From Rhodoferax bucti (GTDB taxonomy: Bacteria; Pseudomonadota; Gammaproteobacteria; Burkholderiales; Burkholderiaceae_C), in NCBI RefSeq assembly GCF_005876985.1, contig NZ_VAHD01000001.1, forward strand, positions 186,001-250,000: 64,000 bases of DNA. The letters run 5' to 3'. A model generated the notes under the pieces. The model saw only the letters and a list, made by a program, of their open reading frames with translations, searched no databases and had not been told where the DNA came from. Every line of letters starts with the position of its first letter. Within the stretch, counting starts at the first letter, position 1. Below, piece after piece: positions 42,793 to 45,608 of the stretch. The translations under genes and the position numbers were made by a program.

Positions 42793-43920
42793 TCAGCCTG
42801 CGCGACGCGCCTTGACGGCGGCAGACAGCACTTCCAGCGACTCCACCGAATCGTCCCAGCCCAGGCAAGCGTCGGTAATGCTCTTGCCGTATTCCAGCGT
42901 GCTGGAGTCGTCTTTGCCGGGGGTGAACTTCTGGGCACCGGCGTTCAGGTGGCTTTCCACCATCACACCGAACACGCTGCGTGAACCACCGCGGATCTGG
43001 CCGGCAATGTCTTTGGCCACCTCGAGCTGCTTTTCGTGCTGCTTGCTGCTGTTGGCGTGGCTGCAGTCCACCATCAGGGTCTGGGGCAGCTTGGCCTTGG
43101 CGAGGTCGGCACAAGCCGCGGCCACGTTGGCAGCGTCGTAGTTGGGCGCCTTGCCGCCGCGCAGGATAACGTGGCAGTCTGGGTTGCCATTGGTTTGCAC
43201 AATCGCCACTTGGCCATTTTTGTGCACCGACAAGAAGTGGTGGCCACCGGCCGCAGCCTGAATGGCGTCGGTCGCGATCTTGATGTTGCCGTCGGTACCG
43301 TTCTTGAAGCCGATGGGTGCCGAGATGCCGGAGGCAAGCTCGCGGTGCACTTGGCTCTCGGTGGTGCGCGCACCGATGGCGCCCCATGAAATCAGGTCGC
43401 CCAGGTATTGGGGCGAAATCACGTCCAGGAACTCGCTACCCGCGGGCATGCCCAAGCGGTTGATCTCGATCAGCAGCTGGCGCGCGATGCGCAGGCCTTC
43501 GTCGATGCGGTAGCTCTCATCCAGGTAAGGGTCATTGATCAGGCCCTTCCAGCCCACGGTGGTGCGGGGCTTCTCGAAGTACACGCGCATCACGATTTCC
43601 AGCGTGTCTTTGTACTTCTCACGCTCCACTTTCAGGCGGCGGGCGTAGTCCAGCGCAGCGGCGGGGTCATGGATGGAGCAGGGTCCGATGATGACCAGCA
43701 GACGATCATCCTTGCCGGCCATGATGTTGTGGATGGTGCTGCGGGTGTCGGTGATCAGGGTTTCCACCGCAGAGCCGCGGATGGGGAAGAAGCGGATAAG
43801 GTGCTCTGGAGGGGGCAACACGGTGATGTCCTTGATGCGTTCGTCGTCGGTCTTGCTGGTGCGGTCGGCGGGTTGGGATTGGCCGTACCAGGCGTCGCTT
43901 GCAGAGGCTTTTGCATTCAT
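42793..43920 (-). CDS. aroG: 3-deoxy-D-arabino-heptulosonate-7-phosphate synthase (type I)
   Basis: This 375-residue protein is a class I DAHP synthase of the AroFGH type, which condenses PEP and erythrose 4-phosphate at the entry of aromatic biosynthesis. Visible features are LVIIGPCSIHDP, EIVMRVYFEKPRTTVGWKGLINDPYLD, GARTTESQVHRELASG, KNGTDG and VDCSHANSSK, with metal ligands in the CSHANS and neighbouring motifs. The ATG at 43920 has GGAGA upstream. A leader with aromatic-codon peptide and terminator lies upstream (43970-44101), so attenuation by Phe/Tyr/Trp supply is likely. Feedback-inhibition type (Phe or Tyr) cannot be told. Confidence 0.96.
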   Translation of the reverse strand: MNAKASASDAWYGQSQPADRTSKTDDERIKDITVLPPPEHLIRFFPIRGSAVETLITDTRSTIHNIMAGKDDRLLVIIGPCSIHDPAAALDYARRLKVEREKYKDTLEIVMRVYFEKPRTTVGWKGLINDPYLDESYRIDEGLRIARQLLIEINRLGMPAGSEFLDVISPQYLGDLISWGAIGARTTESQVHRELASGISAPIGFKNGTDGNIKIATDAIQAAAGGHHFLSVHKNGQVAIVQTNGNPDCHVILRGGKAPNYDAANVAAACADLAKAKLPQTLMVDCSHANSSKQHEKQLEVAKDIAGQIRGGSRSVFGVMVESHLNAGAQKFTPGKDDSSTLEYGKSITDACLGWDDSVESLEVLSAAVKARRAG

Positions 43921-43969
43921 GTCAGGTCTCCAGAGTTCAAATAAAAATGAAACAGGGTGAAAAGGCAAA

Positions 43970-44000
43970 AAAAAACCGCCGGGGGTGCCGGCGGTTTTTT
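43970..44000 (-). terminator. Attenuator hairpin in the aroG leader
   Basis: AAAAAACCGCCGG (43970-43982) and CCGGCGGTTTTTT (43988-44000) form a 13-bp stem around GGGTG. On the minus strand, aroG's direction, it is followed by a U-run and lies about 50 bases before the aroG start. Part of it, CCGGCGG, can instead pair with CCGGCGGT copy text in the leader (44044-44051). Confidence 0.85.
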
Positions 44001-44032
44001 GGGAAGATTCAGGACGTTTCTTTTGGGTACGT

Positions 44033-44101
44033 TCAGATCTCTCGACCGCCGGATGCGCGTGAGAACCAAAAGTAGCTAAAAAAGAAACGTGCGGAATGCA
44101 T
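44033..44101 (-). CDS. Putative aroG leader peptide, 22 residues, Phe/Tyr/Trp-rich
   Basis: A minus-strand frame from ATG 44101 to TGA at 44033-44035 encodes MHSARFFFSYFWF and then SRASGGREI. Five Phe, one Tyr and one Trp codon occur within eight residues, the hallmark of attenuation leader peptides. It lies upstream of the attenuator of aroG. There is no clear Shine-Dalgarno before the ATG, which is the main doubt. The frame includes segments that pair with each other and with the terminator. Confidence 0.65.
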   Translation of the reverse strand: MHSARFFFSYFWFSRASGGREI

Positions 44102-44147
44102 GGGGTTCAATGTAGCACAGGTTTCCAACCGGGGCTTACGCCACCGA

Positions 44148-45608
44148 CTACGCAGTTCCACCTACGGTCAGCCCGTCGATGCGCAGCGTAGGCTGGCCCA
44201 CCCCCACCGGCACGCTCTGGCCTTCCTTGCCGCAGGTGCCCACACCGGGGTCCAGCTTCATGTCGTTGCCGATCATGGAAACGCGCTTCAGGCACTCGGG
44301 GCCGCTACCAACCAGCGTGGCACCCTTCACGGGGTATTGGATCTTGCCGTTTTCCACCCAGTAGGCTTCGCTGGCGGAGAACACGAACTTGCCGCTGGTG
44401 ATGTCCACCTGGCCGCCACCGAAGTTGGGGGCGTACAAGCCTTTTTTGATGCTGGCGATGATTTCTTCCGGCGCCTTGTCGCCGCCCAGCATGTAGGTGT
44501 TGGTCATGCGGGGCATGGGCAAGTGGGCGTAGCTCTCGCGGCGGCCGTTGCCGGTGGGCTTCACGCCCATCAAGCGGGCGTTCATGCTGTCCTGGATGTA
44601 GCCCTTCAAAATGCCGTCTTCAATCAGCACGTTGCGCTGGCTGGGGTTGCCCTCGTCATCCACATTGAGCGAGCCACGGCGGTCGGCAATGGTGCCATCG
44701 TCCAGCACGGTCACGCCCTTGGCGGCTACGCGTTGGCCGATGCGGCCGCTGAACGCGCTGCTGCCCTTGCGGTTGAAGTCGCCTTCCAGCCCGTGGCCTA
44801 TGGCTTCGTGCAACAGAATGCCGGGCCATCCAGCACCCAACACCACGGTCATCTCACCAGCAGGTGCGGGGCGGGCATCGAGGTTGGTCAGTGCGGCGTG
44901 CACCGCCTGGTCCACATAGTCTTCAATCTGCGCATCGGTGAAATACGCCAGCCCGAAACGGCCGCCACCGCCACTAGAGCCCACCTCGCGGCGGCCTTTT
45001 TGCTCGGCAATCACCGTCACGCTCAGGCGCACCAGTGGGCGCACATCGGCCGCCAGCGTGCCGTCGGCACGGGCCACCAGCACCACGTCATATTCCGCCG
45101 CCAAGCCGGCCATCACCTGGATGATGCGCGGGTCTTTGGCACGCGCCAGTTTCTCCACCTTGCCCAACAGCTCCACCTTGGCGGTGCTGTCCAGCGTAGC
45201 AATCGGGTCCAAGCCGGCGTAGAGCTTGCGGCCACCCGCTATCTTTTGTGCAGCAGCTTTCGCACGCTTGGTCTGCGCTGCAGCCGAAATGGTGCGCACG
45301 GTGCGGGCTGCATCCAGCAGCGAAGCTTCAGAAATATCGTCCGAATAGGCGAAGGCGGTTTTCTCGCCACTCACCGCGCGCACACCTACGCCCTGGTCGA
45401 TGCTGAAAGAGCCGGTTTTGACGATGCCCTCTTCCAGGCTCCAGCCCTCGGAGCGGGTGTACTGGAAGTACAGGTCTGCCTCGTCCACCTGGTGCGCCTT
45501 GATTTCGTTCAGGGCTTTGGTGAGATGGCTCTCATCCAGCCCGAAGGGCGTGAGCAACAGGGATTTGGCCGTGGCCAAGCGTTCAATGGTGGGTTCGCGG
45601 GAGATCAT
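44148..45608 (-). CDS. tldD: Metalloprotease TldD
   Basis: TldD, with PmbA/TldE, is a metalloprotease implicated in microcin processing and antitoxin turnover. The 486-residue protein has the zinc motif [15 protein letters not shown], with HExxxH, and the family text [33 protein letters not shown], and YMLGGD near the C-terminal half. It is full length. It lies between aroG (downstream) and rodA (upstream) on the minus strand. The ATG at 45608 follows no strong ribosome site seen. No pmbA is in the window. Confidence 0.95.

Follow-up and report, generated by a model that had tools for sequence, protein, structure and literature searches.

A leader with mixed aromatic codons and competing RNA hairpins as a probable attenuator of aroG in Rhodoferax bucti and its relatives

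We analysed a 64,000-nucleotide stretch of DNA from Rhodoferax bucti (the window) and found, in front of the DAHP synthase gene aroG, a short reading frame rich in aromatic codons followed by RNA segments that can pair in competing ways. We consider it highly probable that aroG is controlled by ribosome-mediated transcription attenuation, which would respond to the supply of charged aromatic tRNAs through an antiterminator formed by segments 2 and 3 (2:3) and a terminator formed by segments 3 and 4 (3:4). The reading frame, the segments, their co-varying pairing and their spacing are conserved in sequence, and from them we infer the transcription start site, translation of the leader, ribosome stalling, termination and the amino acid signal. 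The features of the locus are the following.

44148-45608, minus strand: tldD, upstream neighbour of the leader, open reading frame
44109-44117, minus strand: extended -10 box TGCTACATT, ending 7 nt 5' of the leader ATG
44033-44101, minus strand: leader peptide open reading frame MHSARFFFSYFWFSRASGGREI, 22 codons, with the ATG at 44101-44099 and the TGA at 44035-44033
44080-44090, minus strand: left arm of the long inverted repeat, AAAAGAAACGT, within the leader open reading frame
44063-44086, minus strand: sensor codons FFFSYFWF, within the leader open reading frame
44061-44065, minus strand: segment 1, the 5' arm UUCUC of the local hairpin
44045-44052, minus strand: segment 2, CCGGCGGT, a copy of the terminator right arm inside the leader open reading frame
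44039-44043, minus strand: 3' arm GAGAG of the local hairpin
44014-44024, minus strand: right arm of the long inverted repeat, ACGTTTCTTTT, 3' of the leader stop codon
43970-44000, minus strand: intrinsic terminator with a 13-bp stem (7 of 13 pairs G-C) and a 5-nt loop
43988-43995, minus strand: segment 3, ACCGCCGG, in the terminator left arm, pairing with segment 2 or segment 4
43982-43970, minus strand: segment 4, the terminator right arm
43961-43969, minus strand: U-rich bases 3' of the terminator stem
42793-43920, minus strand: aroG, DAHP synthase, 375 codons plus stop, with the ATG at 43920 preceded by GGAG

The leader ATG lies 46 nt from the stop codon of the upstream gene, which we take to be tldD. 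The original prediction had described an aromatic open frame containing FFFSYFWF and a 13-bp terminator with a U-run. The frame is present on the minus strand and the terminator at 44000-43970, and both recur in relatives. It had also reported text in the leader able to pair with the terminator left arm; CCGGCGGT, which copies the right arm, is indeed there and can pair with ACCGCCGG in the left arm, although its coordinates are 44045-44052 and not 44044-44051. Seven aromatic residues in ten occurred in 4 of about 104,000 stop-free ten-codon stretches (six frames, 64 kb), and three of the four belong to the leader; the fourth, WPAWPWWWFY (plus strand, 25068), is W-rich. The terminator is the sole terminator-like site in 43500-44600, where shuffles of the same stretch average 1.3. 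Such sites are therefore at chance level, and the weight of the evidence rests on conservation. The leader RNA folded at -46.9 kcal/mol, compared with a shuffled mean of -30.7 (z -4.6; none of 200 shuffles was as good), and much of this energy comes from the terminator and the long inverted repeat.

An alignment of the same leader in relatives had been proposed as a check, and it shows that a conserved aromatic-codon leader with competing hairpins recurs before aroG. We scanned named genomes with the aroG protein and obtained 80 loci, mostly from Comamonadaceae and their neighbours, with some from Polynucleobacter and one from Solimonas. A leader, recognized as a ten-residue block in front of aroG with 5 or more aromatic residues, was found in 75 of 81 sequences, that is, in 74 of the 80 named loci and in the window (the close set). 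By this criterion the block of L071 was read in another frame; its true leader has 4 aromatic residues in ten. The six sequences without a usable leader were L018, whose contig begins at aroG, L046, where the leader is degenerate (MRTTVRYHFWHFH), and four Polynucleobacter loci (L077, L078, L079 and L082). Aromatic residues made up 507 of 1,200 codons in frame, compared with 176 and 156 in the shifted frames, an excess that is partly built in, because the leaders were chosen by aromatic content, which also sets the frame. A second sample, loci L090-L178 (89 loci), yielded 77 further leaders (the other set) after removal of 7 loci in which no aroG was found (L126 has too little sequence to tell) and of L111, L161, L165, L171 and L174.

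We built a covariance model, R1, from 68 of the 75 close-set leaders (alignment A1), leaving out L031, which has no terminator, and L013, L015, L044, L047, L070 and L071, which were removed by hand. In the genome of the window, R1 found one strong place, the leader of the window (E 8.8e-20), followed by a next match at E 0.58. At E 0.01 it matched 104 of 399 genomes of the order. We examined 80 of the 105 matches in the order, the window's own excluded; 78 of them precede an aroG relative (29 of 29 and 49 of 51), and these represent 14 of the sampled families. In the class, 13 of 369 genomes matched, 3 of these from the same order. Among the 10 matches outside the order, 9 were examined: four, from two families, have an aroG relative downstream, four (at E 0.0017 or worse) lie without an aroG relative downstream, and one is on a contig that is too short to tell. 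A few genomes from other orders of the class (L119-L122) and a Solimonas (L065) likewise have the leader in front of aroG, and it may have reached them by descent or by transfer. A second model, R2, was built from 63 diverse leaders (alignment A2, with chosen rows) and matched 159 of 399 genomes of the order at E 0.001. Many of its weaker matches, beyond about E 1e-8, are confined to the terminator, and the R1 figure of 104 of 399 is therefore safer. Likewise, R2 gave further matches in the genome of the window from E 2e-4, and those up to E 0.95 were partial.

The order tldD-leader-aroG recurs even where aroG is only 61 to 70% identical (L104, L106, L110, L113 and L116). The genome of the window carries a second DAHP synthase, 56% identical (L002, G000:C1:749550-750596), which has no aromatic leader. 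The aroG genes of the distant leader-bearing loci L102, L107, L110 and L119 are about equally similar to this paralogue, and L102 has two aroG-like genes in tandem 3' of its leader. Where the leader is absent, in the four Polynucleobacter loci, the start of aroG follows the tldD stop codon at a distance of about 30 nt, and in the roughly 330 bases inspected upstream of aroG we observed TTAAAATAGCC directly 5' of its ATG. With this arrangement, aroG may itself be leaderless in these four. The attenuator is retained in two further Polynucleobacter loci, L064 and L067.

These occurrences bear on another explanation, in which the hairpin is a constitutive terminator of tldD, the aroG promoter lies further down and the leader frame is incidental. 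That tldD ends just upstream, that terminator-like sites occur at chance frequency in the stretch and that the four Polynucleobacter loci lack the whole region would all fit. However, it does not account for the conserved aromatic block, the local hairpin, the co-varying arm copy and the promoter motif in front of the leader, and the device is also present where no tldD was found within 1.5 kb upstream (for example, L107, L108 and L114). We regard this explanation as extremely unlikely.

The evidence for attenuation includes the composition of the sensor block. For this and for folding we used the 70 of 75 close-set and 69 of 77 other leaders in which all three segments were found by pattern. 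Counted over the 70 close-set leaders, the aromatic residues are 304 F, 105 Y and 68 W. Of these leaders, 64 have all three (Trp in 64, Tyr in 69), compared with 37 of the 69 other leaders (Trp in 40). In the close set, F, Y and W substitute for each other at the same positions of the block, and at positions 5 to 10 before segment 2 the single-base departures from the commonest codon number 1, 25 and 23 at codon bases 1, 2 and 3. The Phe codon TTT accounts for 211 of 321 Phe codons (66%) in close-set leaders, compared with 117 of 492 (24%) in aroG of the same loci; the shares in the 77 other loci are 64% and 20%.

The original prediction had placed the emphasis on Phe, with Tyr and Trp in second place. 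The conserved block points to a sensor that is aromatic in general rather than Phe only, since the three residues interchange at the same positions. Pooled sensing is plausible, given that all three are present in most close-set leaders. The same attenuator might nevertheless respond to Phe alone, with the Tyr and Trp codons as passengers, perhaps kept for their T-rich codons, and to this we assign a lesser but still substantial chance. Phe is the commonest sensor residue, the preference for TTT in leaders over aroG may reflect a need for U-rich RNA, and the leader of Corynebacterium glutamicum aroF reads Phe-Tyr-Phe, yet Tyr is reported to be without effect (PMC11802643). Against sensing of Phe alone stand the presence of all three aromatics in 64 of 70 close-set leaders, though in only 37 of 69 others, and the residue found most often five codons before segment 2, which is Trp (35 of 70 close-set leaders).

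Past the block, the copy of GGCGG is read in different frames (GGRE, PAEE, AAGE and PGG-stop). Because this frame varies between species, what is conserved 3' of the block is the RNA and not the peptide. This observation is relevant to the proposal that the leader encodes an arrest peptide or is a ligand-binding riboswitch, so that control would be independent of tRNA charging. The conserved local hairpin and the conserved peptide stretch could fit either, but the peptide keeps little except its aromatic class, its C-terminal part changes frame between species, and neither the window region nor any of ten relatives matched an Rfam family at its gathering score. We judge such a mechanism to be very improbable.

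We examined the RNA helices by counting covariation on named structures. Because related rows inflate these counts, the shuffle counts below are not to be read as probabilities. The local hairpin (1:2) has UUCUC and GAGAG arms around an inner stem that varies and includes part of segment 2; most of the 68 local folds showed it. In the alignment, pairing holds in 83.5% of its cells and 29 cells have changed on both sides, with 0 of 500 shuffles as high; versions of the hairpin slid along the sequence did worse on both the pairing and the double-change measures. The terminator (3:4) was found by pattern in 74 of 75 close-set leaders, the exception being L031, and its arms were aligned in 68 and 63 leaders. 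In the diverse set, 96.8% of its cells pair and 31 carry double changes (0 of 500 shuffles as high). RNAalifold on A1 returned the terminator alone, without covariation.

The antiterminator (2:3) showed no covariation in the close set, where its segments hardly vary. In the diverse set, 18 of its cells have changed on both sides, and 4 of 500 shuffles were as high. The number of pairs with a double change was not above that of the shuffles there (321 of 500), and the variable pair is unpaired in 24 of 63 diverse leaders. Segments 2, 3 and 4 change in step, reading CT/AG/CT in 17 and CC/GG/CC in 12 of the 63. The pairing of the leader copy with the terminator left arm, put forward in the original prediction, thus finds support in its covariation with the terminator in the diverse set. 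In L070, which is in neither alignment, GGGGCGGCT stands against AGCCGCCCC.

The inverted repeat that the original prediction had noted within the leader, 44014-44024 with 44080-44090, is exact in the window, where 11 bases link the sensor codons with the post-stop spacer. It is not generally conserved, and we rejected it as a general part of the core; the conserved hairpin is the shorter one with arms at 44065-44061 and 44043-44039. When pairing between block and spacer was compared with that of mononucleotide-shuffled spacers, z averaged -0.48 in 70 close-set leaders and 0.06 in 69 others, and it fell below -2 in 8 of 70 and 2 of 69 leaders, respectively, with -2.0 for the window. A count of long-range pairs in the folds had looked impressive and lacked a control. 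Some leaders do pair strongly here (L069, z -4.1; L054, z -3.7; L015, z -3.4), and most do not.

Folding of the alternative structures had been suggested in the original prediction. We masked the 5' RNA to 12 nt past the A site and cut the RNA before segment 4. In the 70 close-set leaders, the mean probability of 2:3 was 0.97 to 0.98 for A sites 4 to 7 codons before segment 2; it fell to 0.19 at position 3 and to 0 nearer, the zeros beyond this border being a consequence of the masking. The aromatic fraction drops at the same place, from 0.54 at position 4 to 0.03 at position 3. In the 69 other leaders, 2:3 was 0.91 to 0.95, then 0.47, then 0, and the aromatic fraction was 0.78, 0.25 and 0.01 at positions 4, 3 and 2. 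Over the 139 leaders, aromatic codons lie mainly 4 to 12 codons before segment 2. They end about where a stalled ribosome would start to cover segment 2. In the window, 2:3 was 1.0 with the A site at any codon, aromatic or not, from the third up to and including the Ser that follows the last Phe, and 0.001 without a ribosome.

Without a ribosome, 2:3 averaged 0.45 in the close set (above 0.5 in 31 of 70 leaders) and 0.41 before segment 4 exists; it is lowered by other pairing of the early leader, which in the window is that of the long inverted repeat. When only the local hairpin and the RNA downstream of it were folded, the mean of 2:3 was still 0.94 (above 0.5 in 69 of 70 leaders), and in the other set it was 0.83 (58 of 69). 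Since 2:3 wins in these equilibrium folds, we discarded the idea that the local hairpin is a thermodynamic lock on segment 2. Any protecting role of this hairpin would have to be kinetic.

We also held a ribosome on the stop codon, with a 27-nt footprint and the upstream RNA free. In these folds, 2:3 was 0.0 for each of the 20 close-set leaders with a stop at most 15 nt from the start of the core, including that of the window, which accounts for the fed state in the window. The mean was 0.81 in the 50 close-set leaders with later stops, and in the other set the values were 0.0 in 16 leaders and 0.42 in 52. For leaders with late stops, the folds imply that fed-state termination would have to depend on kinetics, for example early hairpin folding or ribosome release, and at equilibrium on the greater length of the terminator stem.

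Each of the 75 close-set leaders has the motif TGNTANNNT ending 6 to 10 nt 5' of its ATG, compared with 0.29 expected in shuffled upstream sequence; starts were set by hand in L041, L050 and L071, and that of L050 was moved by 6 nt, which changed its spacing from 16 to 10 nt. The original prediction was correct that no Shine-Dalgarno sequence precedes the leader ATG in the window, and Shine-Dalgarno-like text was found there in 0 of 75 close-set leaders. Such text precedes aroG in 63 of 75 close-set loci, by a test that was lenient because any in-frame start nearby was accepted. A sigma-70 scan of this stretch of the window returned no promoter because it demanded both hexamers; the extended -10 box emerged on lining up the relatives. 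In the window, this box predicts a transcription start at or beside the A of the leader ATG. The conserved spacing and the missing Shine-Dalgarno sequence make a leaderless leader most likely in the close set, and a transcript that is probably leaderless would itself explain why that sequence is missing. In the other set, 25 of 77 leaders have a -10 box at leaderless spacing and 6 of 77 have Shine-Dalgarno-like text, so families may not all share one kind of start.

A working attenuator could also be translated from a longer RNA, for example by read-through from tldD, without a Shine-Dalgarno sequence and without being leaderless. We found no terminator-like site in the interval from tldD to the leader, and in the other set 52 of 77 leaders have no -10 box at leaderless spacing and 71 of 77 have no Shine-Dalgarno-like text, which would suit a longer transcript. 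The -10 box at 6 to 10 nt in every one of the 75 close-set leaders places the start at or near the ATG and speaks against it. We think that translation from a longer RNA is unlikely.

Attenuation by a leaderless transcript would proceed as follows. Transcription would start at or beside the leader ATG, and ribosomes would translate the leader from a leaderless mRNA. If charged Phe-, Tyr- and Trp-tRNA are plentiful, the ribosome would pass FFFSYFWF, reach the stop codon and, in the window, cover segment 2; segments 3 and 4 would then form the terminator and transcription would end before aroG. A ribosome stalled at an aromatic codon would instead remain upstream of segment 2 and disrupt the early pairings of the leader, so that segments 2 and 3 would pair ahead of the synthesis of segment 4 and RNA polymerase would continue into aroG. 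The local hairpin may hold segment 2 back while the ribosome passes, which would be a kinetic role. The conserved aromatic leader, the competing hairpins and the co-varying arm support the attenuator that the original prediction had proposed, with control by tRNA charging itself inferred.

We searched the databases and the literature for this element. Rfam RF01859 (Phe_leader) matched weakly at 43967-44025, with 21.1 bits against a gathering score of 55, and four leader peptides compared with Pfam and NCBIfam hit 0 families at E up to 1. In our searches of the open-licence literature, we found no description of a leader or of attenuation at a betaproteobacterial aroG. The family thus appears to be widespread and is apparently uncatalogued, while the kind of switch is classical. 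Such sites may be present in databases of predicted attenuators (named in PMC1173090) or in the lists of PMC2965389. Finders that include a Shine-Dalgarno search, such as uORF4u (PMC10219788), could miss leaders of this kind, since these have no Shine-Dalgarno sequence.

The traits of interest are the probable leaderless start and the mixed aromatic codons. In 104 of the 399 genomes sampled from the order, or about a quarter, the leader is predicted to be a control point for the entry of carbon into aromatic synthesis. The family also offers many natural attenuators that differ in their proportions of F, Y and W and could serve to study how several tRNAs are weighed by a single leader, and the local hairpin, which is conserved yet beaten by the antiterminator at equilibrium, poses a clear question for kinetic work. 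Tentatively, and with somewhat less than even confidence, we propose that the leader is a single leaderless sensor that pools Phe, Tyr and Trp: antitermination is predicted wherever in the cluster of F, Y and W codons the ribosome stalls, so that a lack of any one of these amino acids would open the entry step of the shikimate pathway. With its start codon at the extreme 5' end, such a switch would also read the state of leaderless initiation, and the terminated leader (about 135 nt) could have a function in trans. Action in trans has been reported for rnTrpL and peTrpL of Sinorhizobium meliloti (PMC7298713).

Several known systems resemble the leader in part. Transcription attenuation by leader peptides is classical, and the pheL, pheST and trpL leaders of E. 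coli each use one type of aromatic residue and start at a Shine-Dalgarno sequence. Their targets are terminal branches or a tRNA synthetase and not DAHP synthase, in which the E. coli pheA, pheST and trp attenuators differ from the present one. A leader peptide, stalling and terminator logic are shared with pheL-pheA, pheST and trpL-trpEDCBA (PMC11802643). In a survey of proteobacterial regulons, aroG belongs to the TrpR and TyrR regulons of gammaproteobacteria (PMC5343134). The Acholeplasma motif uORFC-13-1, located before aroF, combines a predicted uORF, which holds one or more Phe codons, with a terminator; it differs in having a ribosome binding site and is described from 24 representatives, only from Acholeplasma and environmental sequences (PMC8632094). 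The same article mentions that such control of E. coli aroF had been hypothesised earlier. A scan of five genomes listed two uORF candidates with Phe and Tyr at shikimate genes (PMC6429828), which resemble the window leader by description only.

Attenuators of C. glutamicum are reported to be leaderless, and one of them, aroR, which acts on the DAHP synthase gene aroF, was reportedly described by Neshat et al. in 2014. Its leader peptide, Phe-Tyr-Phe, precedes DAHP synthase, and stalling under Phe limitation raises transcription (PMC11802643, PMC4046766). Leaderless leaders have also been described in Streptomyces, in an article that cites the C. glutamicum aroR work (PMC8079986). The window leader is like aroR in placing an aromatic leader peptide before DAHP synthase, a likeness that rests on the published descriptions; it differs in belonging to another phylum and in that aroR has three aromatics, whereas the window leader has eight, Trp included. 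In S. meliloti, itself a proteobacterium, the 5' end of the trpL transcript is the ATG of the leader frame (PMC7298713), and the window leader, predicted to be leaderless, would be comparable in this respect. S. meliloti trpL senses Trp before trpE(G), however, so that gene, peptide and class all differ.
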